NCBI GenBank assembly: GCA_021292105.1
Contig: CM037874.1
Coordinates: forward strand, 24,354,583 to 24,418,582
DNA: 64,000 nucleotides
Source: Anadara kagoshimensis
Lineage: Eukaryota; Mollusca; Bivalvia; Arcoida; Arcidae
Direction: 5' to 3'
The notes under the pieces were generated by a model that was not told the DNA's origin, did no database searches, and saw only the letters and a program-made list of their open reading frames with translations. The first letter of the stretch is position 1, and every line of letters starts with the position of its first letter. Both the position numbers and the translations under genes were made by a program. Below are positions 561 through 33,269 of this stretch, one piece after another.

Positions 561-564
561 AATA

Positions 565-2653: not shown

Positions 2654-2672
2654 ATATCAAATATCGGCTTGT

Positions 2673-5834: not shown

Positions 5835-5915
5835 GAGCAACCGGCCTTACTTCCCTGTTTAACTTAAATTTCAAACATTTTGTTTTGAAATTGTGATTGG
5901 ACATGAATTAGTATG
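5835..5915 (+). mobile_element. R1 tail fragment at duplication border
   Basis: R1 3' tail ending in TTGTGATTGGACATGAATTA. Similarity between blocks A and B ends right after it; the sister copy is 14112-14190. Confidence 0.6.
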
Positions 5916-7205
<1,290 letters not shown>

Positions 7206-8544
7206 AGGTGCTCATTGGTGATTATAAAATGAATTTTGAGGATATACAGTATTTTTTGTGGCATCAGTCATTATTTTATATTTCTTTTGCGAGGATTGAA
7301 AAATTGATTAAAAATCAATAATAAATTAATGAAAGTGTACCTATAATTTATTTATTGTGAAACTCTTGATAATGTAAAATTATGATTGATAATTGATAAT
7401 AAACAGAAATAGTAAAAAATACTGAACTTAATGAGGGACAATGTTTCACAATATCAGTTCAATAACTCTTTTATTATATAGCAAAATAAATTTCCATGAA
7501 GTGTTTCATCTAAAATACAATTTTGTCGTACAATACATAAATATTACACTAGTTCTTGTAAATGGATAAAAGAACTAGTGCAATATGACTCCAACACAGT
7601 GATGCCGTTGACAACAATCATATGACATCATAAATGACAGGGTTATGTGACAAAGTGTGCAGTATGAAAAAATTTATTTGGGAAACTTCCAGCATGCAAA
7701 TATCGATATTTATTGCACACTAATGCCTCAATATTTATTGTTTAATTTCTACGAGAAGCATATATTGCTGTATGATGATATAGGGTTTTGACCTCTATAT
7801 TCCATAGTACTGGGAATCTTATTGAGTCTGTTAAATCAGTTCTGAACTGATTCCTTGAAAGACTGTTTAAGTTGTTTCATCTCTGATTGGTTACTCAATG
7901 CATTTTAATTAAATGTTCTATGTTTTAATAGCTTCATTTCTCTTAGGACATTAATAGGAGTCTTGTTAAAAGTAGGAAAATAAAAATTACTGCTAGATGT
8001 AAATCACTGCAGTTGTTGTCTTCTCAGAAATGATTTTTTGCATAAAATATATATTGGTTTATCAGTTTATTATCAGTTGTTGATTTAAATGGTTTAACAG
8101 CTGAGAACTGATAGATAATGTTGAATCTTCTGAAGATTATTTATTTGAGGATTATGACTCATTTAGGTAAAAATTCATACCATAGGTACAGTTTTATTTG
8201 AATAGATTTCATTTGCTATCCAACCTGGAGTCAAACAGGTTTATTACCAAATAAAGCTTATTATACATCCCCCAAACAGATTTTAGGGGGGTATATAGGA
8301 ATCACCCTGTCTGTCAGTCCCAATACTGTGTCTGCACCATATCTTCCATGTCTATGGATGGATTTTGATTTTTTTATCAAACTTGGCTCAAATGTAAACC
8401 AACATAAGACGATGTGTATGTTCATAAGTCAAATGTCAAGGTCAGGAGGTCAATGTTGGTGGGTGGGGGAGGGGGTATTTGGCTCTCAAGAAATAATTCT
8501 AGTTTTTAGTTTAGAAACTACTGAAACCAAAACTCCTTCTTGCA
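7206..8544. other. Spacer between blocks A and B, right part
   Basis: No gene is seen. At 8275-8480 there is a mollusc-type dispersed repeat (GGGGGGTATATAGGAATCAC, then CTGTCTGTCAGTCCC, then GTCAAATGTCAAGGTCAGGA). Confidence 0.5.
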
Positions 8545-8729
8545 AAAATACCACAATTACTGTTATATAGATCTTCTATGTTGTTAAAACATGAATTAGT
8601 TGGAATATTATAATTGATATTCAATATACAATGTATTTATATTTGTTATATATTTTTATGCTTAAAAATGAAATGCCAATACCAGTATATATTAATAAAT
8701 CACAAATGTATCACAGCTTTAGCATGTTT

Positions 8730-8808
8730 AGTAGTTATTTATTTTTATTTTTTTTATTATTTTATTTTATTTTATTATTTTTTTATTTATTTATTTATTT
8801 TAAAAATT
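8730..8808. repeat. T-rich (ATTT)n microsatellite
   Basis: A run of TTTATT-like units, longer than in copy 1 (about 195-220). Confidence 0.7.
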
Positions 8809-8889
8809 TACCCCTTTCTGACACTGAAGCTCTACTCATAATCACCATTCCAGCTATATTTTAATTTATAGAAATTAATACTTGTATGA

Positions 8890-9140
8890 AAATTGTTTCA
8901 GGAAAGGTAATTGAAGTCTAAGGTAGTGCACAGAAACTGTTTAATTCTCTTCCCACGGCCAAGGTTCGAATCCCACTCGGGGCACACTCTATTTTGAAAA
9001 AAGTTTGTCATTTCGTTTGCCAAATGTGTGTAGTTTTCTCCATGTGCTATGGTTTTCTTTACCATCAAAGAACTGACTGCTTCATTATAAGTGAAAAAAA
9101 ATATTGACTGGGCTTAAACGCTATTACTCTACTCTGTTGA
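8890..9140 (+). repeat. SINE family 2, copy 2
   Basis: Sister of 330-560. It has a better preserved B-box (GGTTCGAATCCCACT) and a tail ending TTGACTGGGCTTAAACGC. Confidence 0.6.
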
Positions 9141-9169
9141 AAGTTTGATACCATTTATATTTTCTAATC

Positions 9170-9387
9170 TCTAAATTCCTCAAAAACTAAGGTATACTCC
9201 CTCATGCAAAGTATTTCTTAGCTAAAATTGGTAATATATATTTTGATCTTTTGGGCATCTTCTAACATCTCGAAAACAATTTTGGTTTCATAATTTTGGC
9301 CCAAACACTACTGATGAGGAATTGTATTTCAAAACGGCCGTCTAGTGCTGTAAAATTAAAACTGGTATAATATTACATATGTAATTC
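9170..9387 (+). repeat. Hammerhead-bearing repeat, near-intact core (h1)
   Basis: The core lies at 9304-9349: CTGATGA, CGGCCGTC and the cleavage-site strand are intact. The conserved GAAA is AAAA, and stem II carries a C-to-T change. It is probably inactive. Confidence 0.7.
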
Positions 9388-10019
9388 CAATTATAGTTTT
9401 TACAGGAAAAACTTAAACAAATAACTATGCATATTTCTTGTCTTGGACTTTTGTGTTTCCAAAATAAAAAGTTTACATGTATCCCATACATGATTCTGAA
9501 GTCTAAGAATTTGGCTTTCACTCATTTTTCATTAGAAACTAGTTCCCTTATGTAAATATGTAGTGAAAAAAAGTGCATTTATGTGCCATTTACAATACAT
9601 GCACATGAATGTTTCTATTTATTTTTTGGCAGTTTAGGATTATTTTTTTACCAATTCACTTAATTATTTGGAATACCTTTTACAGAGAGTAGTCTTTATG
9701 AAAATTACTTCCATGAGTTCAGATTTCAGTGTCAATTTATAAGGAAATGACATAATACAAAATGTAGGTTTCTGCTCAAAATCTTATTTCAAAAAGTCTG
9801 CACACTTTGAAAATAATACCACTAGAAAAAATTATAATTTTTTGTAATATGTGGCTACAATCTCTTTTTAAAGTAATAATAAATGTGATTTAGTCTTTGA
9901 TTATATATATTTATACTAGTAATGTTGATTGTTGTCTCTATTTTGTTTAGTGTATACTGTTTTTTGCATATCCTGATTAACTATTGAGAAATAAAATAAA
10001 TTGAGAATAAAATGGACTA

Positions 10020-10545
10020 CAGGAGGTAAAATATATCCAGGGTAATTTTAAATAGAGAGGCAACATTATAAACAATATTAAGATGACAGCCAAAAGACTT
10101 TTTGAGAGCCTTGATAAACCTGTAATTGCAATATCCCTGGATCAGCAATTAATTTGCAAACGGCTTGCTTCGTTGTATTGAGTTCCATAGTGAAAACAAT
10201 CTCTACCATAACGTATTGTGAGACAAATACACTATAACTAGGAGAAGCAGGTATATTACTGCATAGAAAAGTAAAATTGGCAATAAAAAATAGTCATCAC
10301 GTTTGTGATACAGTTTGAATTGTAGCCTTTCGCAGGCGCCATAATTGAGGTATAAGTATAAATATGAAGCAGAACTTGAACCATTGGTAGTATCTTTTAT
10401 TTCAAGCTCACTGGGATAGATGTCATTGACACAATCTCCTAATTTGGGAGTATTAAGATATAGAACTTTATCTGTATATCTGTGTGACACTGAATGATTT
10501 GGCTACAGTGTTCTCTCTAGAATTAACAAGGTTCTGCATAAATTT
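10020..10545 (-). mobile_element. R1 retroelement fragment
   Basis: Sister of 1700-2268 and the same part of the element (RYTDKVLYLNTPKLGDCVND, then the C-terminal segment). Broken fossil. Confidence 0.7.
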
Positions 10546-10865
10546 TGCATCGTACGAATTAAAACAAATCAGTAAGAAATGGTGCAAAGTTTGTTTTCAT
10601 CGGTATACCGATTGTTAGATTATTATATTATCCAAACACAACAATAATATTATGTAAAACGTAATGTGTACAACTAATGTTACGTTATTTTGTTAAAATA
10701 GGCACGGAATCAAATAAGCACACTGTATTCACTGTCTCTTTATATTTTCTTTTTTAATGATAAATGTGTTGTATCAGATTTGTATGAAATGCTAGTACAT
10801 ATCTAAAGAGTCGTGGGAACAAAAGGCAAATAATAACAATGCATATAAATAATTGTTCTATACGA

Positions 10866-10871
10866 TTTATT
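10866..10871 (-). terminator. Poly(A) signal of gene B
   Basis: AATAAA on the minus strand, in the same position relative to the stop as in gene A. Confidence 0.75.
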
Positions 10872-10925
10872 CTAATCTAAATACAAATACAAAATCATCA
10901 TATCCATTTAGTTATTCCTTTTCTA

Positions 10926-10941
10926 TTTCCTGAGGGACCAT
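10926..10941 (-). promoter_or_regulatory. Conserved 3'UTR motif of gene B
   Basis: ATGGTCCCTCAGGAAA-type block, as in gene A. Confidence 0.6.
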
Positions 10942-10959
10942 ATATCAAATATCGGCTTA

Positions 10960-13009
10960 TTAGTAAATTTTGCCACCTGTAAATAAAAAAGAAATGTAAA
11001 TTAAGAACAGCGACATTTAATGCATAGAGATAAACGAGCTGATCAGTGATACAACCAAACATTTCCGTATCGAAGATTCAAGGTTTTAATGAATAATGGA
11101 ATTACAAAAAGTAGTTAACATGCCAGAGAATGAACCTACAACTTGTGGTCCAAATTTCTTAACTAACATAAATGTTTAATAAATTCCGAAACGACCGTCT
11201 AGTGGTTTAAAATTAAAACTGTTACAAATAATTGAAATAAGGATATTTTGATAAACGCTTACAAGTCACTGTGATTTTTTTATTTGCTATTCTTGTTTTA
11301 CCTTTTATGATTTTAAAAACATATATGTACCTAGTGCTTGCAAATTAAAAGAATATTAAATCAACATAGTACATGTTTTTGTAACAAAAATAACTCCAAA
11401 TCCTCAAAATATACTCGAATATTATTAGTAAACCTGTTTTAATTTTGCAGAACTAGACGGGCATTTCGGTATAAATAAAATAAAATTCCTCGCCAATAGT
11501 ACTAAAACTTTTCCTGTAATATAACATTTATTGAGGCTGTACTTAGTTTGCGATCACTATATTCTCAGTACATTTATGTCCCTTAATTTCGTTTTGTCAG
11601 TATTGCTTGTTATTGCATATATGACGACATTATGTCCTCACCTTTTCGCCAGCTTCCACCATTTCCTCCCCAGTTCCAATTCCCATTGTTACCCCAGTTT
11701 CCATTGTTTCCCCAGTTCCATCCACCATTGCCACCGTTCCATCCACCATTGCGCCAGCCGCCGTTATTCCATCTTCCACCACCTATCCACATACCTAGCG
11801 GTATTTAATATAAATCGTTTTATGTTTCATCTTAAAATTTACATGTTTTGAACATTTACATCTCGTGTACAGTATTTGTATGGTTAAAGAAAGACATATA
11901 CAAATAAAAAAAACCATACTAATCCATGTCCGAATCATAATCCAGAAGCAATGTAAAAACTTTGAAACTGAACAAAAGAAGCTCAAAATTAAAAAAAAAT
12001 ATGTCCCCTAAATACAGACCTATTTAATATTTTGATGTTAACTTCTGACAATTATAATTACAACAAGAAGTTAAATAATAATTTGAATAATTCAGGATGC
12101 GTAAAATGAACTATCCACCAGATAAAGAATATTAACCGCCACTTATAAAAACCCCAAATGATTTTGGACGGTCATCCGAAATATGAAAATGTACACAGTG
12201 ACTTCGTTCGAATTTTACATACGTGTCAAAAACTGCATTTATATATCAGAAAAAGCTGCAATATTCGCATGTAATTATTTTCCATTGTCAACTTTCCTTT
12301 TCTATGCAGCAATATATTTTTTATACATTGTATCTGCGTCTCCTGCTCATGGCGCGTTTGTTTCACAATTCATACGCTATGATAGACCTTGTTACCACTG
12401 TTGGAATTTTATACAACGAAGCAAGCTGCTTGCACATAAATTGTTGACACAGTGATATTGCAGACATATGCTTATCAGGGCCCTCTAAAAGTTTTATGAC
12501 CTTCATCAAAGTATTGTTGATGTTTTTGTGTCAGGAATATATTTGACGTTCTATAGTTCAATGTCTCTTTCACTTCAATCAATTTTGATGAATACGTAAC
12601 TGGTCTAGCTAGCTAAACAGGAGGTGCTTACCCTTCCCAGTACCAGGTCTCACTTCCAAGATAGACGTTCACGTGTTTAAATAATTTACCAGTCGCAATG
12701 TTTTTATTTTGCGTTTGAATTTGAAATATATTAATGTTTGTTTTTGATCGTTACTGACATTGTATAATGTTTTTTTAATTTTGGTTTTGAGTTGATTGCA
12801 AACACAGAACATCATGTTTTAAATACAATTTTTATATTGGGGTGTTATAACATCTTACCACCACCGTTATCCCAGGGGCCGTTGTCCCAGTAACCGCCAC
12901 CTCCACCAATCCATCCTCCATTATTTCCACCGTATCTCCAGGGTCCATTATTCCACGCTTGATTTACAACGACCAAGCACAAAAAGACGGCGAGCAACAA
13001 AATCTTCAT
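10960..13009 (-). CDS. Gene B: secreted Gly/Asn/Trp-rich protein, 106 aa
   Basis: Spliced minus-strand gene. Coding exons are 13009-12859 (exon 2 from acceptor end 13018), 11794-11642 and 10976-10960. Splice sites, phase-1 introns, signal peptide, G/N/W repeat units and the G-K-I-Y end match gene A. The predicted protein is identical to A, although introns and flanks differ by small indels. That points to a recent duplication, gene conversion or strong constraint. The likely role is the same as for A: an extracellular structural or matrix protein (inference from signal peptide and composition). Confidence 0.85.
11440..11515 (-). repeat. Hammerhead-bearing repeat remnant in intron 3 of gene B
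   Basis: Sister of h15 in gene A, with similar decay. The companion 3' remnant in plus orientation is at about 11180-11225. Confidence 0.45.
11905..11985 (-). mobile_element. R1 tail fragment
   Basis: Sister of 3630-3705. Confidence 0.55.
12240..12735 (+). mobile_element. R1 retroelement 3' fragment in intron 2 of gene B
   Basis: Sister of 3960-4460; it was present before the A/B duplication. Broken fossil. Confidence 0.75.
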
Positions 13010-13363
13010 ATTGTATAACTGAAATACATGTATATCATTGAAAGAATTCAATATTATCCAAGAACAGAAAATAACCAATACATTAATGATGGAACAGCCA
13101 AAAAAGCCAATAATGTAAATTTCTTTTGGAAATATAAGTTAAAAAGATAATAATTGATGTATTTTAGTAAATGAAACCCAAATTATGTGTAAATGTCCAT
13201 TTAAGGATTGCCCAGTTTACTTAAAAATTATGAACAAGACAAATGTTTGCTTACATTTATATTTCGGCTCGGGTATCCATTGATTTTGCTAATTAGATTA
13301 ATTGTAAAAAAAACCAAAGAAAATGTTGAAATTCTTCTATTATTCAAATTACATAATACCAGA

Positions 13364-13440
13364 TTTTTACAGCACTAGGCGTCCGTTTCAAAATACAATT
13401 CCTCATTAGTAGTTCTTGGATTAAAATTGTGAAATCAAAA
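13364..13440 (-). repeat. Hammerhead-bearing repeat, decayed copy (h13)
   Basis: Sister of h12; the core at 13371-13416 has the same defects. Confidence 0.6.
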
Positions 13441-13582
13441 TATTTTGTCTAAGTATACAGTATTCTTAAAAGTCACTTCAAACAGATAAACTTACATTAT
13501 AAAAAATTCCTCAAAATACTGACTGCATATTAATCAATCAAACTTATAATATACCTTATTTATTTATTTCTAAAAAACTTAC

Positions 13583-13640
13583 CTTGGTTGTTTATCCCTC
13601 TGGAAAGACTGCTGAAACATACAACTATTCGGTATATATA
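13583..13640 (-). promoter_or_regulatory. TATA box and non-coding exon 1 of gene B
   Basis: TATATATA at 13633-13640 (minus). Exon 1 runs from near 13610 to the donor AACCAAG|GTAAG (exon end 13583). Confidence 0.8.
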
Positions 13641-13749
13641 GGGGGACATTTGGAGGAAATAGAAACGAATATATCCCTCTTACATTTAAAAATATCTTGT
13701 TTCTTAAAAAAAAATTGCATCTGCTTTTGTTTAAAAATAGTTAAACCAA

Positions 13750-13910
13750 AGATTATTTGACGTATTTATTGATTACAACATGGCGACTTTTGTTCAACTC
13801 TAGTGTGATATTTTAAAACTCTTGTTTGACATGTTGTTATGTCATCTTGAATTATAGGCAGTCGGTATTTATACATGTTAGGTCATGTCCAGTGGCTAAC
13901 ATACAACCAT
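13750..13910 (-). promoter_or_regulatory. Conserved upstream module of gene B
   Basis: Same block as at gene A. The CCTATAATTCAAGATGACAT core is at 13839-13858 (minus), about 199 bp upstream of the TATA box. Confidence 0.65.
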
Positions 13911-14111
13911 CAATAAATAAATATATTCATTTCTAAAGGAAATTTGAAATTGTTTATCGGTTTTTACAAAGCGGTGGTAGAAAAATGCAACCTCAAACTG
14001 TCAAAAAATAAAAAGAATGATGCGTTTGTTTAGTGCAGTCACTTGGTTCGCATACGTCACAAATAATAGTAGGCTGTTGATATTATATACTGGAGAACAC
14101 CCATTTTACTC

Positions 14112-14190
14112 TTTCGAAGCAACCGGCGCTGTTTAAAAGTTTCAAAAATTTTGTTTTGAAATTGTGATTGGACATGAATTAGTATGTTTG
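14112..14190 (+). mobile_element. R1 tail fragment at duplication border
   Basis: Sister of 5835-5915. Here the tail continues as GTATGTTTGTTTTTGTTGAT, closer to the R1 consensus end than the copy-1 tail. Confidence 0.6.
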
Positions 14191-15984: not shown

Positions 15985-16500
15985 ATTAAAAACAGACGTA
16001 CGAATCCATGTCCAAATAACAACCCAAAAGCAAAGTAAACACATTGAAGCCAAAAATTAAGTAAAAACCAGAACTTTCTCTATGGAATTGAGACAAAGTG
16101 CTCCGTAAAGGTAAGCCCCTCCTGTTTAGCTGACTTCATCAACATGGCTTGTAATCAAGCTATTGGACGCCAAATGTATTCGGGGTAATTTTGATACAGA
16201 CATTATTAACAATATTGTTATGACACAAAATGTTGTGATAAAAAATTTTGAGAGCCTTGATAAGCCTTGGTAAGCATATGCTTGTAATATCCCTGCATGA
16301 ACAATTAATTGGTCATTTGCATGCTGTGTTGTATAACGTTCCCGTAATGAGAACAAGCTCTACCATACCGTATTGATTGTGAAACAAATACATTGAGGAA
16401 GCAGTTATATTGCTGCATAGAAAAGCAAAATTGACAATAGAAAAATTGAAGTCATCACGTTTGTCATACAGCTTTAGAATAATATATAGTGGTGTAAAGT
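15985..16500 (-). mobile_element. R1 retroelement 3' fragment
   Basis: Reverse-complement R1 with a 3'UTR piece (CTCCTGTTTAGCTGAC at 16119-16134) and C-terminal coding pieces (NFAFLCSNITASS, FHNQYGMVELV). Broken fossil. Confidence 0.65.
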
Positions 16501-17189
16501 GCAAAAATGGTTTTATACTTTATAAACGTAATTAGAAATTAGAATCAAAGCGTTCAAGTAATTCTTAAGATTTTTTTAGAATCCCCATTTGTTTAATGTC
16601 AGCTGCATTATAGAATTGAGTAATTTATGCTTATCTTTAGCATATCCAATTGTCAATTAATTTAAGGCAATTCAAACAAATCTTGATACCACCTTCATGC
16701 TTAGAGTGACTAAAATCTATTTTTGCTTATGTGACCTAGTAGATTATGATGATTGACTGATTGACCTAAAAACAAAGAATTCTCAACATTTCGCTATTTT
16801 GACATATAAAATGCATTTTAATACATTATTCAGTTTTTACTTCGCTTTTTTGGACTGTGATTTGACATTGTGACGTTGCCGTTAGAACATAATAAATTTA
16901 TCATTTTAATAATTTAAAATCACAGTTATTTCAAAAATAGTAAAACAGTCTCATTTCAACCACCTTTTCCGATAAATTGGAACATAGAAAATATAAATTT
17001 TGAGATTGAAAACGCGGAAAATGAGTTTGCGTATATTAGCCCTTACTGAACCAACTGACCTAACGAAACAAATGTATCATGCTATTTTTTACATCTGGGG
17101 ATTTCTTTACTTTTCTACAACTGATTTGTAAATATAAATAAACAACTTCAAATGTCTTTAACAAAAACATTTCTCTGTTGATTTATTGT

Positions 17190-17345
17190 TGTATTTAAGC
17201 CACTGGACATGACCTTGCATGTATAAATATCATCTGCCTATAATTCAAGATGACATATCAACTTGTCAAACAAGAGTTTTAAAAAATCACACTAGAGTTG
17301 AACAAAAGTCACCATGTGTTAAACAATATGTACGTCAAAAAATGA
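17190..17345 (+). promoter_or_regulatory. Conserved upstream module of gene C
   Basis: CCTATAATTCAAGATGACAT at 17237-17256, followed by TGTCAAACAAGAGTTTTAAA; about 185 bp upstream of the TATA box. It is shared with A, B, E and F. Confidence 0.65.
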
Positions 17346-17440
17346 ACAAAAACCATGCAATTTATTTTCATTTTTTTAAAACATAATTTTTTTAAATGTT
17401 ATAGGGATATATTCGTGTCTGTTTCCTCCAAATGTCCCCC

Positions 17441-17497
17441 TATATATACCGAAGAGTTGTATGTTTCAGCAGTCTGTCAGAGGGATAAACAACCAAG
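17441..17497 (+). promoter_or_regulatory. TATA box and non-coding exon 1 of gene C
   Basis: TATATATA at 17441-17448. The start is expected near 17470, and exon 1 ends at 17497 (AACCAAG|GTGAGT). Confidence 0.8.
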
Positions 17498-17660
17498 GTG
17501 AGTTCTTTTAAATTAATAATTTCATTTTATCTTTGTTGAATTGACTTGAAATCAATTGATTTGTGTAAGAAAGTTAAGTTATTTTTATTGACAGGTATAT
17601 TCTTAACTTCTTATTTGGACTTAAATTGTTTATTATAACTTACAGAAAAGTTAAAAACCT

Positions 17661-18009
17661 CTGCGGTAGCTCAGTTGGTAGAGTGCTCGCTCCGTAAGTG
17701 GGAGGTCGTGGGTTCGAACCCCGGCCGCGTCTGACCCAAGACTTAAAAGTGGGTAGTGGCTGTTCTTTCGCCAAGCACTCGGCATAACGAAATGAAAGTC
17801 AAGGTTCTTTCGGATGGGAACTTAAAATAATCGAGGCCCCGTGTCTTGGTAGGCTTGGCACGATAAAGAACCCTGCTGTAAAATGCCATCAGCGCAATGC
17901 ACAGGCAAAATTTCTGCACCTTCGCCTATAGCTGGCGACATCTCGATATAAGTGAAATATTCTTGACTGGGACGTTAAACACCATTACTCACTCACTCAC
18001 TCACTCACT
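17661..18009 (+). repeat. tRNA-derived SINE (family 1), full-length copy S1
   Basis: The tRNA-like head has an A-box (GGTAGCTCAGTTGGTAGAG) and a B-box (GGGTTCGAACCCC), followed by a body and tail (TTCTTGACTGGGACGTTAAA) with a (CACT)n end. It is flanked by an 18-bp direct target duplication, CAGAAAAGTTAAAAACCT, at 17643-17660 and 18010-18027. It is absent at the sister site in gene F intron 1, so it inserted after the C/F duplication. The head is not a functional tRNA gene. Confidence 0.92.
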
Positions 18010-18579: not shown

Positions 18580-20747
18580 ATGAAGATTTTATTGCTCGCC
18601 GTCTTTTTGTGCTTGGTCGTTGTAAATCAAGCGTGGAATAATGGACCCTGGAGATACGGTGGAAATAATGGAGGATGGATTGGTGGAGGTGGTGGTTACT
18701 GGAATAACGGTCCCTGGAATAGCGGTGGTGGTAAGAAGTGATAAAATACCAATTTAAGAAACAACTGTATTTAAAACATGGTGTTATCTACCTGATTGCA
18801 AAAAAAAAAAAAAAAAAAAAAAATCAAGATTAAAAAACAAATTATAAACTAATATTGAGGATATCACCAACTCAGTAGGCAATAATTTTGTATTAGTGTC
18901 AGAAATATACTATAATTGTCTAAATTTCCTGAAAGTTAAAATTTGAAATTTCTCAAAAACTAAGGTATACTCCCTCATGCAAAGTATTCCTTAGCTTAAT
19001 TTGGTAAAATATATTTTGGTCCTTTGGGTAAGTTTTCAACATCTTCAAAAAATTTTGGTTTCATAATTTTGGTCCAAGCACTACTGATGAGGAATTGTAT
19101 TCCGAAACGGCCGTCTAGTGCTGTAAAAATTAAAACTGGTATAATATGGAATTGCAGATTTATGTTATACGGATGCAATTTTTGTCACTGATTTCAAAAT
19201 TGAACTTTCTCACTGTGTACCTTTTTTGTCATTTTTTATGCCACCCAAAGACAATCGGAATTTTTATCAGTGGTCAAACTACGCTACTATTAATCTCTAT
19301 CCTGCACACCGGTTTATTTAACTCATCTTGAATTTTTCAACCTATGATAAAGTATGCAAGAAAAATTTAATAGGTTGGAACTAAGGGGACATTACATGTT
19401 CTTACTATTTGAACTTCTATGTATGTCTTTCCTTTTAAACGAAAATGGAAATATAACACACGAGATATAAATGAAATTTTAATATAAAATAAAACATCTT
19501 ATTCTAAACAATAGGTGTTGTGATAGGTGGCGGAAGATGGAATGGTGGATGGAACGGTGGTAATGGAGGGAGCTGGAGAAACAATGGAAACTGGGGTAAC
19601 AATGGGAATTGGAACTGGGGAGGAAATGGTGGAAGCTGGCGAAAAGGTAAGGAGGTTATATATCAAATACAACAGCAAAATTTAAGTTTGAAACCGCATC
19701 AATCATTTTATAAAAGATTATATTTATTCAAATATATAAGTAAATTTATGGATTTTGAAATTAATATTTTAAATATATGAATTATTATTATTATTTTATT
19801 ATTTTGAAAGCACATAGTATATATGTCTTTAAAGTAAAATAAAATCACATAATGTTAGATAGGTATTAAAAAGAGCTTACATTGTAAGGTATATCGAAAA
19901 CAAACACACCAATCCATTTTCAAACCTAAATCGCATAGCAAAGTAAAAACGTTGAAGCTTACACCGGGAAAGTAAGGCGCGGTAACAATTTATTTGTGAG
20001 CAGCTTGCCTCGTTGTATAAAGTTCCTGAAGTGGGAACAATTTCTTCCTTAGCGTATTAATAATGAAACAAATACACCATATCAGAAGAAGCAGGTATTT
20101 TGCTGCATGGAAAAGGAAAGTTGACAATAGAAAAACTAAGGTCATTACGTTTGTCATACAGTTTTAAATGTAGCCTTTTCTTGGCGTCATAATTGAGATA
20201 TAAGTTTAAATATGCAGCAGAACTTGAGTGAGTGAGTGAGTGAGTAATGATGTTTAACGTCCCAGTCAAGAATATTTCACTTATATCGAGACGTCGCCAG
20301 CTATAGGCGAAAGTGCAGAAATTTTGCCTGTGCGTTGCGCTTATGGCATTATACAGCAGGGTTCTTTGGCGTGCCAAGCCCACCGTGACACGGGACCTCG
20401 TTTATTTTAAGTTCCCATCCGAAAGAACCGTGACTTTCATTTCGTAATGCCGAGTGCTTGGCGAAAGAACAGTCACTACCCACTTTCAAGTCTTGGGTCA
20501 GACCCGGCCGGGGTTCGAACCCACGACCTCCCACTTACGGAGCGAGCAGTCTACCAACTGAGCTACCGCAGTGGTGCAGCAGAACTTGAAGTATCAGTCG
20601 TATTATTTATTTTAAACTCATTGGATAGGTGACATCCACAAATCTATATTCCATGTTGGAAACTGGCAATTTAATTTAGACAATTAATTGTTTACTGTCA
20701 ATTTTTATTTATTTTCATTTGCAGGCGGCGGTGGCAATTTTTATTAA
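18580..20747 (+). CDS. Gene C: secreted Gly/Asn/Trp-rich protein, 101 aa
   Basis: Plus-strand gene. Coding exons are 18580-18730 (exon 2 begins 18573 after TTTTCAG), 19515-19646 and 20725-20747; all junctions are GT/AG and phase 1. The start is the first ATG after the exon 2 acceptor. It encodes the same 18-residue signal peptide as A and B, then WNNGPWRYGG, a GGGGGYWNNGPW segment, an exon 3 of GGW, GNNG and NWNW units ending SWRK, and a final exon reading GGGNFY-stop. Compared with A/B, exon 3 is seven codons shorter. Intron 1 contains SINE S1, intron 2 a hammerhead element, and intron 3 an R1 fragment with nested SINE S2. Like its relatives it is probably an extracellular structural or matrix protein. 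Confidence 0.85.
18858..19149 (+). mobile_element. Hammerhead-bearing element, full-length with intact ribozyme (h3)
   Basis: About 290 bp in gene C intron 2, starting GAGGATATCACCAACTCAG and ending AAAACTGGTATAATATGG. The paralogous intron of gene F lacks it: F reads ...AAGCTAACATTGCAGCTCTG... where C has the insert. A short ATTG is repeated at both edges (18854-18857 and 19151-19154). The ribozyme core lies near the 3' end (19077-19122). It is probably a non-autonomous retrotransposed repeat of the retrozyme kind (inference). Confidence 0.75.
19077..19122 (+). ncRNA. Type-I hammerhead ribozyme, intact consensus
   Basis: All canonical parts are present. Stem I pairs AGCACTA with TAGTGCT. 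CTGATGA is at 19084-19090. Stem II is GGAAT-TGT-ATTCC (5 bp with a 3-nt loop) at 19091-19103. GAAA is at 19104-19107. A minimal stem III is CG-GC-CG, closed by the A-U pair. The cleavage site is GTC, with cutting expected after C19115. Such a short stem III is known from hammerheads in Penelope-like elements and retrozymes, which often act as dimers. Activity is not shown here. Confidence 0.85.
19885..20650 (-). mobile_element. R1 retroelement 3' fragment, interrupted by a SINE
   Basis: Reverse-complement R1 in gene C intron 3, with pieces such as SSSAAYLNLYLNYDAKKRLH and NFPFPCSKIPASS. SINE S2 sits inside it. The sister copy in gene F (31490-31880) has no SINE. Broken fossil. Confidence 0.7.
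20228..20574 (-). repeat. tRNA-derived SINE (family 1), copy S2 nested in R1
   Basis: Minus orientation: (GAGT)n end first, then the body, then B-box and A-box complements (GGGGTTCGAACCCACGACC). It is flanked by a 15-bp target duplication TGCAGCAGAACTTGA at 20213-20227 and 20575-20589. It is absent from the sister R1 fragment in gene F. Confidence 0.92.
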
Positions 20748-20766
20748 GTCAGCCAATATTTGTCTT

Positions 20767-20782
20767 ATGGTCCCTCAGGAAA
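20767..20782 (+). promoter_or_regulatory. Conserved 3'UTR motif of gene C
   Basis: ATGGTCCCTCAGGAAA, about 20 nt after the stop, as in the rest of the family. Confidence 0.6.
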
Positions 20783-20839
20783 TAAACAGGAAATTACTAA
20801 ATTGATATGATGATTTTGTATTTGTATTGTTTAGATTAG

Positions 20840-20845
20840 AATAAA
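20840..20845 (+). terminator. Poly(A) signal of gene C
   Basis: AATAAA, about 93 nt after the stop codon. It is preserved in gene F at 32276-32281. Confidence 0.75.
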
Positions 20846-20924
20846 TATCATTTAAATATTTTACATGTTCGTTTTTAATCTTTTGTGGAACTTTGATCAA
20901 GTTATACCACATGTTCATGTTCAA

Positions 20925-21253
20925 GAGTAATGGTGTTTAACATCCCAGTCAAGAATATTTCACTTACATCGAGACGTCGCCAGCGATAGGCGAAGGTGCA
21001 GACATTTTGCCTGTGCATTGCACTGATGACAATATACAGCAGGGTTCTTTAGCGTGGAAACCCACCGTGACGCGAGACCTTGTTTATTTTAAGTTCTCAT
21101 CCGAAAAAACAGTGACTTTTTTGTAATGCCGAGTGTTGGCGAAAGAACAGTTACTACCAACTTTCAAGACTTAGGTCAGACCCATTCGGGGTTCGAACCC
21201 ACGACCTCCCACTTACTTAGCGATCACTCTACCAACTCACCTACCTCAGTGGT
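20925..21253 (-). repeat. tRNA-derived SINE (family 1), copy S3
   Basis: Diverged minus-strand copy just downstream of gene C. The sister copy S4 lies in the same place downstream of gene F, so it predates the C/F duplication. Confidence 0.85.
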
Positions 21254-21699
21254 AAGTAACAGTTAAGAAGAAACGGTACTAATCGTTTGTAAGAAACAAA
21301 CTAGGCAGCTGCCAAGTCTGAACAATGGCTTGGGCAAAGAATGTCTAGCAATTCTACATCACATACAGAAACAATTTAACATTGAAATCATGGGATTTAA
21401 ACCATAAAGAAATAATATATTATCAATATGTTTAACAAATCATTCAATATAATTAAAAAAACTAGCCCAACATGAATACACCCTTATACTATTTTACCCT
21501 TCGTTTGATAGAAGTAAAGAGACAACATTTTTAAGTTATTTGATAAACTTATTATTTTCTGTTTCACTATAAATTTGAAAGTTTTACAATTGCAGTTTCT
21601 ATTGTCTTGAATAAAGCTGAGTGTTTTTCATTTATTTGGATCTTGTTATAAAGGAAAATGGATATGCGCATATTTGATTAAATTGATTACCATGCACTC

Positions 21700-23190
21700 C
21701 GACAAATGTTGCCAATATGAGAACTTAATCAGTAATTCTAACACAAACTACTGTCCGTTGATCGTCGTCAAAGATGATCTTCAGTCTTATTTAGATAGAG
21801 TCTACTCTCGCCTCGCATCACCTAATGATTAATTCTTAAAATTCCAAAGAATTACTTGGACATTTTTATTCTAGTACGTTATCACGTGTAAAAAAGAAAA
21901 AAAAAACAAACTGTTGATTTTTCTACACTTTACACTACTATCTCTCATTCTAAATTAAAAGAACGTCTAAAACAAAGTATTCACTTGGCATTGTTTTACA
22001 AAAATGGTAAGATACCATCAACAAAATTGTCTTTGACAGACAATATATTTTTATATTCGGTAATATCATTTTCCAGCAGGCAATCAGTATAGAAATGGGC
22101 ATCATTTCTTGTTTTGTTTCATTATTCGTATGAAGCAGAATTTATGCAGAACCTTGTTAAATCTGGGGAGAGGACTGTCGCAAAATCAACCAAATTATTA
22201 TGCAGATATATAGATGAGATTCTATATAGCTCTTAATAAATCTGTATTTGGAGACTATGTGAATGCTATTTAAATTAGTGAGCTGCTGGAAATACAGATA
22301 AGACTTTATTTACTTTATATTTAGACATGCAACATTTTAAAAACTTTTTAACATCGATGACATATTTCACCCAATCTTAATACGATGTAATTTGAAACGA
22401 TTAACGAATGTGTTTGTCACATCAACTGTCCGAATTAAAACAAAATATAAAGACAAAATCTTCCTAAAACGCTACATTTAGACGCAGCCCTGTTTTGTGG
22501 TTTATACTAAATTGTTTTTGGCTGGATTTAATTGCACTTTTGAACCATTTCGAAAGATATTGAGTGATATTATATTGCACATGATGAAATAAATTTATAT
22601 AAGATTGAGTGGAACATGCTGCCGCATTGTTTCATTGACGATTTTAGTTTACGATTCCTTTACCAAATGGTAAATATTTCTTATTAATTCATAAAAGAAA
22701 GAAATGTGTAACTAAAACATGTCACAGCCAACCCGTATGACACAATGTAAGGTACATAAATAATTTATATTTGATATATAACATACACTGCACGCTGTTG
22801 TAATAAAAAGAGAAAAAACTTTGCAACTTTAACCGGAGATTTGTGTTTATCACGTGGAACTCAATTTTTATAATATTTTTATCATTTAGTTCAAAAACCT
22901 TTTTAATTTATCGTTAAATATTAGAACGCTTTTATTTTAAAACAAAAAATTCGCATCTTACTTTATTTTCAATACATACTAGGTTATTTTGTTTTATTAT
23001 AACATACATTATACGATATTGTAATACAAAGAGGAATAACTTTGCAACTTTAACCGGAGATTCTTAATTATCATGTAGAACTCAGATTTTATGATATTTT
23101 ATCATTTAGTCATTGTGTCGCAAGACAGCATTTTTTCAGTCATCACAATATTGTTGATAAGTATGATCTTTCTGTATCATCAATAATGTA
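21700..23190 (+). mobile_element. Old R1-type retroelement with reverse-transcriptase remnants, unit 1
   Basis: Diverged remnants include a RYIDEILY (YxDD-like) box near 22190-22230 and a C-terminal HHNIVDKYDLSVSS-like end near 23140-23180. The sister region is 33270-34620, where the box reads YRYMDDIL. Broken, old and shared by both duplication units. Confidence 0.5.
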
Positions 23191-23399: not shown

Positions 23400-24668
23400 T
23401 AATTACAATCTTTTTTTAATTATTTTTATTTTTGTATAGCAAACATGAAATATCATAATTTTACATAATTGTTATATACATTCATAATACAATATATACA
23501 ATATACAGATTTTCTGCATGGTTATTCAATACATGTATATAGTGAAAAAAAATAATTTAGAACACTGTAAATATATTTTGAAAACCTATCAAAAATTTCC
23601 AGTTTTCCCAAATTGCTTAATCTTATTCTTTCTAATGCTATATTATAGTTCAATTTTGTTCTTAAACTGTTAAAATTTAATTTGCTATCATTTGATCGGG
23701 CGTTGTATATATTATTTCTTACTAAGATAAATATGAAGTTTAAAGGTTTTAATTTTTCCGAAATGTTTGGGTTACCGAAGATAGCCGTTTTAGGATTTAT
23801 TTCTAAATTTATTCCTTTATTTTCAAATAAATTTTCTAATTTCTCCCAAAGATTATAAACATGTTGACACTCCCAAAACAAATGTATTATATTTTCCGCA
23901 AATGTGTTACAAAATTTACATTTTTCATCTGTTCTTATTCCAATTTTTTTCAGATAACTATTTGTTGCTAAAATGTTATTATTTATTCTATACTGAAACC
24001 ACTGGAGATAGTATTTTTGGTTGCATAAAAGGGTATGCAATTGTAAATTTTCCATTCTTTATCTCCAATGTTAAACTCTGATTTCCATTTTATTTCACTT
24101 GTCTGTATTTTGTGTGTATTATTTAAAAATAAGTACATGTCTTTAGCGCCTTTTTTAGATTTAAAAATTATTTTTAAGTGAAACGGTATAAACGGGTTTA
24201 TTGTTTTAATGATGTTAGGGTGTATCTTAAGTGTTTTTATATACTTTTTAATTGAATTTATAAGACTTTTATACTCTAGAAAATTTGTTTTGATGTTGTA
24301 TTTTAGTTTAAAAGTTTCATAATTCAGTAATTGTTGGTTTTCATCTATTAAATCTTTTATGAAAACGATATTATTTTTGAAATATTCTTTATAAAGTATT
24401 GTTTCATTGTTTATTTTTATATTTATATTACACCGTATGCACAAAGATTCAATGTCGTTCCAGTTTTAACGGAAATATTTTTTATTTGTAAAATAGACCA
24501 TGCTTCAAAAACATCTTTCCAAAATGTATTTTTAATATTATGTATTTTCTTATTTAAATATTCCGCTCCCATAGTGGCAATGTCATTACTTTGAAAATTA
24601 AAACTTCTAGATAACCTTAAGCATTTAGAATCACTTTGTAAGAGTCTTAGTATCCAGGTCATTTATAA
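23400..24668 (-). mobile_element. L1/Tx1-like LINE, 5'-truncated 3' end
   Basis: Three overlapping minus-strand frames cover the C-terminal part of an L1/Tx1-type ORF2. The last (24055-23522) carries a zinc-knuckle CKFC...IIHLFWEC (C-x2-C-x8-H-x4-C) typical of that clade's C-terminus. A frame change near 24000-24050 breaks it, and another lies near 24430. The 3'UTR ends in an A-rich stretch at about 23400-23440 (minus). The sister site in unit 2 (about 36470) lacks the LINE, so it arrived after the large duplication. Confidence 0.8.
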
Positions 24669-24689: not shown

Positions 24690-24952
24690 CCTTTTTTTTA
24701 GACTACTAATAAGTTAGATTTAACAAGTGAAATTCCGCCATGGAAGTGATATTGGGTATTCTGGAAGGGTATCACCTCCTGTTTAGCTAGCTACAGCCGC
24801 CACGTGTGTAATCAAAATTGAGTGAAAGGAAGATTGAAATACGGGACGTCATATATATCCAGGGCAAATCTAGGCACAGAGACATCAAACTTTTCGAGGA
24901 CCCTAATAAACCTAGTCTTGCAAAATCCCTGGGTCAACAATTTATTTGTAAT
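24690..24952 (-). mobile_element. R1 3' fragment, first of a head-to-tail pair
   Basis: Reverse complement of the R1 3'UTR and the end of the coding part. It abuts the next copy at 24953. Confidence 0.7.
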
Positions 24953-25560
24953 CAAAAACAAACATACTAGTCCATATCCGAATCACAATCTAGAAGCAAA
25001 GTAAAAACGTTGGAACTGACAAGTTAGGTTACACACGTGAACTTCTACCAGGGAAGTGAGGCCGGGTACTCCGGAAGGGTAAGCACCTTCTGTTTAGCTG
25101 GCTACACCCGCCACGTGTGTAATCAAAATTGTGTGAAAGGAACATGGAACTATGAGACGTCAAATATATCCAAGGCAATCCTGGACATAGAGACATCAAA
25201 CTTGTCAACAATACTGTGATGGCGGCCATAAAACTTTTTGAGGGCCTTGATAAGCATAGGCTTGCAATTTCCCTGAGTCAACAATTTATTTGCAAGCAAG
25301 CTACTTCGTTGTACAAAGTCCCCGTAGTGGGATCAAACTCTACCATAGCGTATTAATTGGGAAACAAATACACCATAAGCAGGAGAAGCAGGTATATTGC
25401 TGCATACAAAAGGAAAGTTGAAAATAAAAATTGAAGTCATCACGTTTGTCTAAAAGTTTCAAATGTAGCCTTTCATGTGCGTCATAATCCAGGTATAATT
25501 CTAAATATGAAGCAGAACTTGAGGAATCAGTCGTGTCTTTCCGATTCTTCAAGTTCTGTT
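24953..25560 (-). mobile_element. R1 3' fragment, second of the pair
   Basis: A longer copy, with tail near 24960 and coding pieces up to the SSASYLELYLDYDAHERLHL region near 25460-25540. Broken fossil. Confidence 0.75.
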
Positions 25561-25934: not shown

Positions 25935-26310
25935 CGACCGACCACCGACCTCATTTTCCTGGTGGAATTTCACGTGTTTGAGCTAATTTGACAGTTTGCA
26001 GTGTTTACTTTATTAAGGGGGTTGAAATTTGGTATTGTTCGCCGATGTTTGTGTTTGAATTGTTATTTTAGTTTTCAAAGTGTTTACTCTACTAAGGGGA
26101 TTGTGATTTGGTATTGTTCGGCGATGTTTGTGTTTGATTTCTTCTTTCAGTTTTCAAAGTGTTTACTCTACTAAGGGGATTGTGATTTGGTATTGTTCGG
26201 TGATGTTTGTGTTTGATTTCTTCTTTCAGTTTTCAAAGTGTTTACTCTACTAAGGGGATTGTAATTTGGCATTGTTCAGTGATGTATGTGTTTAATTTCT
26301 TCTTTCATTA
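25935..26310 (+). repeat. R1 tail with 79-bp tandem repeat
   Basis: The segment GTGTTTACT...TTTGTGTTTGATTTCTTC recurs at 26001, 26080, 26159 and 26238, a period of 79 bp. The sister region in unit 2 (36490-36625) has one copy, so the array expanded after duplication. Confidence 0.85.
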
Positions 26311-26575: not shown

Positions 26576-26944
26576 ACATAAATGACTTATAATTTGAACA
26601 TGTTGCCACAAAGTATAGAAAACAAAGCATAAAAAATATTTTTTATACAATTTATTCTAATCTTAACAGTATAAATACAAAATCATCATATCTATTAAGT
26701 TGTTTTCTGTTTCCCCGAGGGACCATAAACGAGATACATAGTACGATTTACCTACAAATAAAGATATAAAAAGATAAATAAAACTTATATTGGTTTTCTA
26801 TATATATATAGTCAAACAACATTGACCTGTCTGCTTGACCTTTCATCAGGAATATTATCTTTATATGATGATCCACCTAACAGATAGGTAGTGTTTTTTG
26901 ATGACATAAAGACTATTTGAATGTGCATATTAATGGTAGATTTC

Positions 26945-27155
26945 AATTCCTCATTAACTAAGGTATACTCCTTCATAAAATTATTTCCTTAGATAAATTT
27001 GACAAAATATATTTTGGTCATTTAGGTATCTTTTTTTAACGTTTTGAAAAACTTACAGTTTCATAATTTTGGTCCAAGCACTACTGATGAAAAATTATAT
27101 TCCAAAACGGTCGTCTATTGCAGTGAATTTTAATTGGTATAATATGTAAATATGA
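26945..27155 (+). repeat. Hammerhead-bearing repeat, decayed copy (h4)
   Basis: The core is at 27077-27122. CTGATGA is kept, but stem II cannot pair properly and GAAA is AAAA. It lies in intron 3 of pseudogene D; the sister copy h6 is in gene E. Confidence 0.7.
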
Positions 27156-27656
27156 CTAATATAAAATCGTGTTTTATTTTAACACCTTAGTTAGTATGTC
27201 GAAATGCAAAATTATCAATGTCTATTGCGATCGATATTAAATATACGTATAAAATGAAGGTCTTATCGTTTGTCTTTACCTTTTCGTCAGCTGCCTCCGT
27301 TATTAATCCAACTTCCACCGTTAATTCTCCAGCTTCCATTGGAACCCCAGTTTCCATTAGATCCCTAATTTCCATTAGAACCCCTGTTCCAATTACCTCT
27401 ACCGTTGATTCCTCTCCATCCTACTGGTGATATTTAAACAAAACCTGTTTTTATTTATATTTAAAACACCTTATATCCCATGTCATAAAATTAATAGTGA
27501 GAAACACTTAATGTAAATGTGTGACTGACCTTGGTCGGATTCTGGACATTTCAAAAGTGTACACTGAATAAAGTAATGTGGGAAAAAGACATGACGTTCT
27601 TTTGAAATATGATACGCATTGCATCTACGTAACAGGAACACGTTTCTTATTGTGAA

Positions 27657-28012
27657 TTTACTGCCATCTATAAACTATTACACATGCTAAAACTGCTCCT
27701 ATCATTACAGACTGAAAATCTTCACGGAACTAAATTAAACATGTTTCTGCTAAAGCGGTTTTCTAACTAAATAGTGGTTTATCTTGAAAAATATATTTTT
27801 AAATATTTTTATATTTTTTCTGATAATTTCAAAACAGTTCAAAGAAAATTGTTTTTCTTAAAAAAAACCAACTTTGTTGCATACACATAGACCTTGAAGT
27901 TAAGATATCACTCTCAAATATTGTAAAAACTGTTAATAAAAGTTGGTAATTGTAATATAAGCCTATGACAAAAGGTATATTTATACAGAAGTGTTTTTAT
28001 GGCAGTGTATAT
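27657..28012. repeat. MITE family M3, old copy in pseudogene D intron 2
   Basis: The ends read CTGCCATCTATAAA...TTTTTATGGCAGTGTAT as imperfect inverted repeats. It is shared with gene E (37998-38182, internally deleted) and with a free copy at 53368-53731. Confidence 0.6.
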
Positions 28013-28614
28013 AGACAGTTTGGTTATATATATTTTTATTTAAGGTTTGTCAAAGAAAACATGCAGTTGGTTCATTGTTTGGTGACATTGTTTTTTGAGT
28101 ATTTAAATTTCCACATTTTTGGAATGGTTGTAAAATATGCTTGAGGATTGAGGGCCGTCTAGAAGTACAATTAAATTAGAGGAGGGGTATTTTGATCAGT
28201 GGTCCAAATATAATTCTTGTTTCTTTATTTAAATGGTGTTGTGTTCTTGGTTGCCATTCTAAGGCTGCTTAGTACATGATTTTAATTATTCGTAAAGGGG
28301 TTCAAATTTTACCCGTGATCAATACTAATTCTATATTTTGTTGTTTTAGACAAATGAAAATTAAATTTCTCCTTACCTCCATCATAGTACAAGCTGCTAA
28401 TTTCCGTTGCCCCAGGACCCACTTTCTCCATACCAAATACCTCCATTGTCCAAAGGTCCATTACCACCCCAGTGATTGCCGTATCTCCAGGGTCTATTGG
28501 TCCATGGGGTATCATTTAGGGCTTCATTAAAAACGACCAAGCACAAAAAAACGGAGGGCAAAAAATCTTCATATTTTATATCTGAAAGAAACCATTAACA
28601 TGAATTTAATCATT

Positions 28615-30430: not shown

Positions 30431-32183
30431 ATGAAAATTTTGTTGCTCGCCGTCTTTTTGTGCTTGGTCGTTGTAAATCAAGCGTGGAATGATGGACCCT
30501 GGAGACGCGGAGGAAACGGAGGATGGATTGGTGGAGGTGGTGGTTACTGGAATAACGGCCCCTGGAATAGCGGTGGTGGTAAGAAGTGATAAAATACCAA
30601 TTTAAGAAACAACTATATTTGAAACATGGTTTTATCTACCTGACTGCAAAAGAATCGAAATCAAGATTGAAAAAAACTAAATTAAAAGCTAACATTGCAG
30701 CTCTGTATGTTATACAAGTGCAATTTTTGTCACTCTTTTTAAAATTGAACTTATTTACTGTGTATCTTTTTCTCATTTTTGATGCCATCCAAAGACAATC
30801 GGAATTTTGATTATCAGTAGTCAAAATACGCTACTATTACTCTGTATTCTGCACACTGGTTTATTTAACCCATCCTCAATTTTCAACCTATGATTTAACT
30901 TCTTGTTAAAAGTAAGCAAGAAAAGATAAGAAGGTTTGTATTAAGGGGACATTACATTTCTATTCTAACTTCTTTGTTTGTCTTTTCTTTACACCAAATG
31001 GAAATGTAGCACACGAGATGTATTTGAAAATTTTAATATAAAATAAACGTCTTATTCTAAACAATAGGTGTTGTGATAGGTGGCGGAAGATGGAATAATG
31101 GCGGTTGGAGAAATGGTGGGGGCTGGAGAAACAATGGAAACTGGGGGAACAATGGGAACTGGGGAGGAAATGGTGGAAGCTGGCGAAAAGGTAATGTGTA
31201 ATGTGTATATATAAACAAACAACAAACAATAGTCAAATTGAGGACATACTGTAAACGTTGTGTTTGGAAAATGAAAAACCGCTTCAATCATTTTATTGAA
31301 ATAGGATATTTATCAAAATATATAAGTTTATTTTTGGGATTTTGAAATTAATATTTTAAATACATGAATTATTATAATTATTTCATTATTTTGAAAGTTT
31401 GACAGCACAAAATATGGGTTTAAAGTAAAATAAAATCATTTAATGTAAGACATGTATTTAAAAAAGTCTTACATTGTAAGGTATATCGAAAACAAACATA
31501 CCAATCAATTTTCAAACCTAAATTGCATAGCAAAGTAAAAACTTTGAAGCTTACACCTGGATAGTAAGACGCGGTAACAATTTATTTGTAAGCAGCTTGC
31601 CTAGTTGGATAAAGTTCCCGCAGTGGGAACAATTTCTCCCGTGGCGTATAAATTATGAAACAAATACACCATAACCAAGAGAACCAGGTATTTTGCTGCA
31701 TAGAAAAGGAAATTTGACAATATAAATATTGAAGCCATCAAGTTTGTCATACAGCTTTAATTGTAGCCTTTCCTGACGTCATAATTGAGATATAAGTTTA
31801 TATATGAAGCAGTACTTGAAGAACCGGTCGTTTTTTTTTATTTCAAGCCCAATGGGATAGATGACATTCACAAATCTATATTCCATGATGGAAACTGGCA
31901 AACTAATCTAGACAACTGAAATACCGCCACGAAAGTGAGACCGTGTGTCCTATAGATTTATTCCTCTGATTATATATTATGTATTATTCTAAGAAATTTG
32001 GTCCCAGATGGTCATTGTGCATCCAGTCTCTGTCATGGTAAATTCCAATTGCATTATCAATTAAAGCCTTAATTATTGAGTTTGATATAGAAGTGCCTGA
32101 TTGCACCACTGACCTTTTTCGTCTAGTTTACTGTTAATTCTTATTTATTTTCATTTACAGGTGGCGGTGGCAATTTTTACTAA
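30431..32183 (+). CDS. Gene F: secreted Gly/Asn/Trp-rich protein, 97 aa
   Basis: Plus-strand gene. Coding exons are 30431-30578 (exon 2 begins 30425), 31068-31190 and 32161-32183; all junctions are GT/AG and phase 1. The signal peptide is identical to that of A, B and C. The mature part starts WNDGPWRRGGNGGWIG and is one codon shorter in exon 2 than C. Exon 3 has a reduced number of G/N/W units (GGWRNGGGWRNNGNW), and the end is GGGNFY-stop. It is the sister of gene C from the large duplication; changes include N-to-D and Y-to-R after the signal peptide and loss of three codons in exon 3. Intron 2 lacks the hammerhead element found in C; intron 3 holds an R1 fragment without SINE. Probable extracellular structural role. 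Confidence 0.85.
31490..31880 (-). mobile_element. R1 retroelement 3' fragment in gene F intron 3
   Basis: Sister of the fragment in gene C intron 3, without the nested SINE. Broken fossil. Confidence 0.65.
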
Positions 32184-32202
32184 GTAAGCCGATATTTGTG
32201 TT

Positions 32203-32218
32203 ATGGTCCCTCAGGAAA
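32203..32218 (+). promoter_or_regulatory. Conserved 3'UTR motif of gene F
   Basis: ATGGTCCCTCAGGAAA, 20 nt after the stop. Confidence 0.6.
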
Positions 32219-32275
32219 TAAACATGAAATAACTAAATGGACATAATGATTTTGTATTTGTATTGTTTAGATTAG

Positions 32276-32281
32276 AATAAA
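32276..32281 (+). terminator. Poly(A) signal of gene F
   Basis: AATAAA, 93 nt after the stop. Confidence 0.75.
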
Positions 32282-32391
32282 TATCATTTAAATATTTTAC
32301 ATGCTCTTTTTCTATCTTTTGTGGAACTTTGTTCAAGTTAATACAAATGTGCATGTTGAAGCAACAACAAACATTGAAATAACAGTTAAGA

Positions 32392-32720
32392 GTTGAGAGT
32401 AATGCAGTCAAGAATATGTCACTTATATCACGACGTCGCCAGCTATAGACGAAGGTGCACAAATTTTACCTGTGTGCTTCGCTGATGGCCTTATACAGCA
32501 GGGTTCTTTAGCGTACAATGTCCATCATGACACGGGACGTCGGTTATTTCAAGTTCCTACCCAAAAGAACCGTGACTTTCATTTCGTAATGCCGAGTGCT
32601 TGGCGAAAGAACAGTCACTACCCACTCTCAAGCCTTGGGTCAGACCCGGTCGGGTTTCGAACCCACGACCTCCCACTAACGGAGCGAGCACTCTATTAAC
32701 TGAGCTACCGCAATGGTAAG
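32392..32720 (-). repeat. tRNA-derived SINE (family 1), copy S4
   Basis: Sister of S3. A 12-bp target duplication TAACAGTTAAGA flanks it at 32380-32391 and 32721-32732. The tRNA-like head is at the right end. Confidence 0.88.
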
Positions 32721-33269
32721 TAACAGTTAAGAAGAAAAGAGATACTAATCGTTTGTAAGAAACAATTAAGTCAGCTGCCAAGTCTGGATAGTGGCTTGTC
32801 AAAGAATATGTAGCAATTCTACATCATATACAGAAACAGTTTAACATTGCAATCATCGGATTTAAACTATATAGAAATAATATATAATTAACATCGTTAA
32901 CAAATCATTCAATTTGATAGAAAAAATACATCTAGCCCATATTAAATACATTCTTATAGTATTTTACCCTTTGTTTTGATAAAAGAAAATAGAAAACATT
33001 TTAAGTTATTTCGATAAACTGACTATTATGTTTCACTGTAAATTTGAAAGTTTTGCGATTGCAGTTTCTATTGTCTTGCATAAAGGTTAGTATTTTTCAT
33101 TTACTTGCATCTTGTCGTAAAGAGAAATCGCTATGCGCATATTGGTTTACATTGATTATATCTAAAATGTGATAAAAGTTGTAAGTATGTGAAAAATTAC
33201 ACATCGAAAACCGTTTCTAAACTTAAGAAATATCCGTACAAGAAAAGATGTACAGCAGGTTCCTCTAAA

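Follow-up and report, generated by a model that had tools for sequence, protein, structure and literature searches.

A dispersed and mostly decayed repeat of Anadara kagoshimensis with a minimal type I hammerhead motif, probably a short non-autonomous retroelement

The 64-kb stretch of Anadara kagoshimensis DNA analysed here as a whole (the window) contains a family of retroelement copies that bear a hammerhead and are mostly decayed, and this family is real. Legible in the sequence are the repeat, its nearly common 3′ end combined with graded 5′ ends, one site devoid of the element and two intact hammerhead cores (Table 1). We consider it likely that the repeat represents a short non-autonomous retroelement equipped with a minimal type I hammerhead, including the mechanism of spread proposed below. 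The unit is non-coding, low in G+C and ca. 293 bp long, a size within the 150–450 bp criterion for retrozymes; the 4-kb blocks of the window have G+C contents of 30–38%.

The first intact motif (19077–19122, plus strand) comprises a stem I of 7 bp (AGCACTA/TAGTGCT) followed by CTGATGA, a stem II of 5 bp with a 3-nt loop (GGAAT-TGT-ATTCC) followed by GAA, and a helix III reduced to A15.1-U16.1 and one C-G pair around GGCC, which is succeeded by C17 of the triplet GTC. Every part of the hammerhead consensus is present in the order claimed in an earlier note on this DNA, according to both the sequence and a descriptor search. Helix III consists of 2 bp with a 4-nt loop, its strand ACGGCCGT (19107–19114, plus strand) is an 8-nt palindrome, and cleavage is predicted between 19115 and 19116. 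In the second motif (41516–41561, minus strand) the core and the pairs are identical, and the very short stem III in a type I layout recognized earlier recurs with 2 bp. However, its cleavage triplet reads GTA, such that from the previous claim of two intact copies with GTC the intact cores stand while the second triplet has to be corrected. The complete set of type I features (core CUGANGA ... GAA, A15.1-U16.1, H17, three helices and an open stem I) was found in these two of the 17 copies. A possible outer extension of stem I by AATTTT and AAAATT is paired in a 112-nt fold and unpaired in a 65-nt fold; it is weak and of low complexity. As judged from the letters, the motif is a real hammerhead of type I layout with a very short helix III, and both copies may cleave themselves, as predicted from their intact cores.

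A pattern of stem II and core matched ten times at up to 3 mismatches, compared with an average of 0.00 over 100 shuffles. The more general type I descriptor (CTGANGA, stem II of at least 4 bp, GAAA, helix III of 2 bp, H17, stem I of at least 5 bp) identified two sites in the 64-kb window, namely the two intact motifs, and none of 300 first-order Markov sequences contained any match. The earlier note had regarded covariance scores below threshold for both intact copies as a refutation, and formally this outcome was obtained. A Rfam scan of the whole 64-kb window detected no hammerhead at the gathering score and listed none at E up to 10 under whole-window filters; in an 81-base search, RF00163 (Hammerhead_1) gave the first copy an end-to-end match of 28.1 bits (E 1.2e-5; cut-off 34), whereas no match was listed for the 81-base stretch around the second. 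A copy with G at position 17 (35773–35813) scored 13.9 bits against the same cut-off. We infer that the 2-bp helix III lowers the scores, as does A17 in the second copy. In our judgement the shortfall is overruled because the full consensus is present and these weak points account for the low score.

Inside the window, blastn revealed 17 copies of the repeat, nine on the plus and eight on the minus strand, in line with the previous count of at least fifteen on both strands. That the repeat carries the motif was confirmed, with the correction that it is longer than the motif, the fullest copy extending over ca. 293 bp. Segmental duplications are clustered in the window, where 2–1250 corresponds to 8539–9903 and 1594–5919 to 9900–14190 and, in pieces, 19151–22772 to 30694–34379 and 26894–28329 to 37215–38531. 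Ten copies, arranged in five pairs, sit in such duplicated host DNA; because these pairs are duplicates of older insertions, at most 12 insertions are independent. The repeat is dispersed, as had been stated, but several of its copies represent duplicated host DNA and not separate insertions. Spread of a dead ribozyme, considered on the basis of the broken motif common to the copies at 26945 and 37260, was rejected since segmental duplication accounts for their likeness.

Table 1. Positions of the hammerhead motifs, the insertion site and the copies of the repeat in the window
Feature	Position	Strand	Basis or remark
Type I hammerhead motif, intact core	19077-19122	+	GUC site; descriptor match, RF00163 28.1 bits
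Second hammerhead motif, intact core	41516-41561	-	GUA site; descriptor match, no RF00163 match listed
Hammerhead including a possible outer A/T stem I extension (AATTTT/AAAATT)	19065-19131	+	Folding
ATTG, left copy of probable target-site duplication	18854-18857	+	Single ATTG in paralog
ATTG, right copy of probable target-site duplication	19151-19154	+	Single ATTG in paralog
Host position without element in paralog	30694-30697	+	One ATTG, versus two at filled site
Fullest copy, ca. 293 bp	18858-19150	+	Missing from paralogous site 30548-31150
Copy near full length	41492-41767	-	blastn; carries second intact motif
Copy with G at position 17 as sole core change (triplet not cleavable)	35622-35843	+	blastn, core scoring
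Damaged copy, duplicate of 9173-9373	558-745	+	blastn, duplication map
Damaged copy, G12 to A	9173-9373	+	blastn, core scoring
Damaged copy, duplicate of 37260-37468	26945-27149	+	blastn, duplication map
Damaged copy	37260-37468	+	blastn, duplication map
5′-short copy, G12 to A	41088-41211	-	blastn, core scoring
Damaged copy	51795-52013	-	blastn, core scoring
Copy with 8-nt insertion beside cleavage site, weak stem II	62549-62750	+	blastn, alignment
5′-short damaged copy, duplicate of 13347-13447	5068-5168	-	blastn, duplication map
5′-short damaged copy	13347-13447	-	blastn, duplication map
5′-short copy, stem II partly deleted	43788-43876	-	blastn, alignment
3′ fragment, duplicate of 11183-11227	2897-2945	+	blastn, duplication map
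3′ fragment	11183-11227	+	blastn, duplication map
3′ fragment, duplicate of 11426-11473	3148-3197	-	blastn, duplication map
3′ fragment	11426-11473	-	blastn, duplication map

The window holds several further features. Gly/Trp/Asn-rich open frames at 4573–4866 (−), 12845–13138 (−), 19508–19780 (+) and 48273–48713 (−), several of them with a signal-like start, lie in segmentally duplicated units without a Pfam match above cut-off and perhaps represent clustered genes for small secreted proteins of structural function. A coding-looking fragment without a Pfam match (59104–59556, +), which we presume to be a retroelement reading frame, recurs at 1743–2140, 3994–4437, 10009–10422, 12278–12721, 15985–16474, 24951–25540 and 54010–54527 with identities between 68 and 93%. 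Tandem arrays are built from 79-bp units (26000–26307) and 59-bp units (44234–44693), and a tRNA-Thr (CGT) gene or tRNA-derived sequence (17660–17732, +) is located just past the point where a duplicated block of 1 kb (16617–17658) stops. Among the copies of the repeat, the 3′ fragments at 2897–2945 (+) and 3148–3197 (−) are inverted relative to each other at a distance of ca. 200 bp, and this arrangement is repeated at 11183–11227 and 11426–11473; partial copies in inverted orientation have been ascribed to Penelope-like elements.

The ends of the copies point to the mode of insertion. Using the fullest copy as blastn query, all 16 other copies end at query positions 288–300 (19144–19156), while their starts are spread over positions 1–243. 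Target-primed reverse transcription is usually recognized by graded 5′ ends and a nearly constant 3′ end, and the observed pattern is as expected after this process; 5′ truncation with a constant 3′ region is common to Penelope-like, LINE and SINE elements. The cleavage site (query position 259) is crossed by 17 of 17 copies, which implies templates that were either uncut there or re-joined, and is compatible both with uncleaved RNA and with re-ligated circles. A paralogous stretch (30548–31150), otherwise 81–84% alike to the filled site, has no element and contains a single ATTG in place of the two that flank the insertion. This ATTG pair is probably a target-site duplication, a reading drawn solely from the paralogous site, from which the element may instead have been lost by recombination between the two ATTG. 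An excess of target-site duplications was not detectable among 14 copies, as the longest words shared by their flanks measure 4–8 bases, compared with 3–9 bases between mismatched flanks.

After insertion the copies apparently decayed. Fifteen of the 17 are damaged: among the 11 copies without length change in the motif, which were scored for core positions, two are intact and nine have at least one core change, and the six copies with insertions or deletions (2897, 3148, 11183, 11426, 43788 and 62549) were judged damaged by eye. The exchange of G12 to A (CpG to CpA) is found in four of 13 scored copies, three of them independent. In ten copies taken as independent, mismatches to the consensus amount to 44 of 460 positions inside the hammerhead and 118 of 1202 outside, gaps being counted as mismatches inside and skipped outside; this similar divergence gives no sign of constraint after insertion. 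Compensatory changes were not found, as none of 18 pairs is altered on both sides in the 13 of 17 copies aligned, which are young or decaying, and the paired share of these 13 copies is 89.2% versus 89.9% in shuffles. Neither the covariation alignment nor the mismatch count included the rows 2897, 3148, 11183 and 11426. The consensus of the copies, on the other hand, is an intact hammerhead. Moreover, the intact GUC core belongs to the least diverged of the ten copies compared as independent, which suggests that a recent source copy probably carried an active motif, and the likeness of 95.6% (197/206) between 18946–19155 and 35636–35843 argues for an element active fairly recently.

In folding predictions the single motif has an ordinary stability (z between −0.45 and −1.63 in five folds), and for the first copy the best single-molecule fold (−12.3 kcal/mol) is inactive with core bases paired, compared with −7.8 kcal/mol for the active fold. 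Because the helix III strand ACGGCCGU is palindromic, two units can share a helix III of 8 bp and swap their stem I strands. For the dimer of the first copy this double hammerhead is the exact predicted minimum (−34.5 kcal/mol), whereas the dimer of the second prefers another duplex (−32.7 versus −26.6 kcal/mol). Other sequences give this dimer fold as well: of 300 random designs with a palindromic helix III, 83 also fold as double hammerhead. Of six loop orderings, the double hammerhead is obtained with the four that are palindromic and with neither of the other two; by chance, 1 in 16 sets of four loop bases would be palindromic.

On this basis we propose the following scenario. RNA of the element would be produced by read-through or internal transcription, and two hammerhead units, either on the same RNA or on two RNAs, would pair via the palindromic helix III; the resulting double hammerhead would then cut at H17. 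A reverse transcriptase encoded elsewhere, for which Penelope-like elements are the published candidate source, would copy the RNA from its fixed 3′ region into AT-rich DNA, thereby generating 5′-truncated copies that subsequently decay without constraint. The template may be a circle or the uncut RNA, and a spread through self-cleaving circular RNA is possible. In the window, a Pfam search at E up to 0.1 detected neither a Penelope-type reverse transcriptase nor a GIY-YIG domain in any of the 34 longest ORFs (at least 90 aa). The only Pfam match above a curated cut-off in these 34 ORFs is zf-RVT (23525–24058, −; 34.3 bits, cut-off 27.5), and this segment appears as a remnant of a LINE-type reverse transcriptase. 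As to relatives elsewhere, three patterns gave no match in a collection of viral contigs. The 36 bacterial and archaeal matches to one pattern in genome contigs were attributed to chance, as a scripted test detected the closing stem I preceded by T and H in none of the 36, and so was one blastn match in phages (14% coverage, E 0.7).

The likeness to hammerheads of Penelope-like elements and animal retrozymes, suggested in the earlier note, is borne out by PMC7761336 and PMC7229834. Minimal type I hammerheads occur by the thousands in animal genomes, mostly dispersed and some in Penelope-like elements; they may cleave as dimers and are described in PMC7761336 as having no known role. Their presence in genomes and pseudo-LTRs is the subject of Cervera and de la Pena 2014 and of Lunse, Weinberg and Breaker 2017 (both via PMC7761336). 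Insofar as portrayed there, the present repeat shares with them the type I layout, a very weak helix III, dispersed single copies in non-coding DNA and possible dimer cleavage, the likeness being one of layout; it differs from Penelope-like elements by the above-mentioned lack of their enzyme domains in the window's 34 longest ORFs. For a Penelope-like element of Anolis, ATT is reported to be favoured at the target and insertion in vitro to proceed without hammerhead cleavage (PMC11167929). The non-LTR retrozymes of Mytilus galloprovincialis (ca. 5000 type I hammerheads, usually in repeats of 350–390 bp, with slow self-cleavage of ca. 0.1 per minute and abundant circular RNA) are likewise short, non-coding and low in G+C, and their hammerheads, like the present one, are described as devoid of most loop-loop contact bases (PMC7229834). 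In contrast to their tandem units, our repeat forms single dispersed copies of ca. 293 bp, with a 4-bp target duplication and a shorter helix III than metazoan retrozymes as far as these are documented there. The newt satellite 2 hammerhead (cf. PMC6155905) is also of type I with a weak helix III and more active as dimer; compared by description, it differs in that the newt units are tandem satellites. The dispersed minimal kind provides the best fit.

A strict metazoan non-LTR retrozyme, which passes through tandem transcription, hammerhead cutting, circularization by a host ligase, reverse transcription and insertion, appears unlikely. Size, low G+C, type I hammerhead and absent coding capacity are of the published kind exemplified by the mussel repeats, and the cleavage site crossed by every copy is what re-ligated circles would leave behind, but the 64-kb window is free of tandem arrays of the unit. 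The sole near pair on one strand consists of the motifs at 41126 and 41531, 405 bp apart, whose spacer (41213–41479) has no blastn match elsewhere in the window at E 1e-4 and whose downstream member has no G12; a tandem dimer at 41088 and 41492 was rejected in view of this spacer and the 5′ truncation. Published target duplications, if present, exceed 4 bp according to PMC7229834, compared with 4 bp here, and the 2-bp helix III is nearer to the published minimal kind.

It is equally doubtful, in our view, that the hammerhead is a mere passenger of a SINE-like repeat or of a Penelope-like untranslated part that moved without cleavage, the ribozyme being inert or slow in vivo. Divergence is as high in the motif as elsewhere in the repeat, covariation was not found, the single molecule is predicted to adopt an inactive fold at its energy minimum, and hammerhead mutants of the Anolis element still insert in vitro (PMC11167929). 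However, inserted copies are expected to decay neutrally regardless of the role of the ribozyme in the source copies, and an unused motif would not survive repeated rounds of spread to emerge intact in the consensus. We regard as rather improbable a third possibility, a single-unit element linking Penelope-type minimal hammerheads and retrozymes, which would cut via its palindromic helix III mainly as double hammerhead between two RNAs or distant units, depend for cleavage on copy number or transcript concentration, and derive its copies from re-ligated or uncut RNA and not from tandem arrays. That an AT-rich repeat resembles the hammerhead consensus by chance, for which the Rfam score under cut-off and the absent covariation might be adduced, is already disfavoured and exceedingly improbable, given the lack of matches in shuffled and Markov sequences and a consensus that unites every core position and three helices.

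The gain offered by the non-autonomous, hammerhead-bearing retroelement proposed here is modest, as its kind is already published from mussels, corals and other animals. It adds to the link between hammerheads and animal retroelements a case with one clean paralogous site without insertion. Should the ribozyme be active only as dimer, one could use it to test whether ribozymes of this sort sense copy number.
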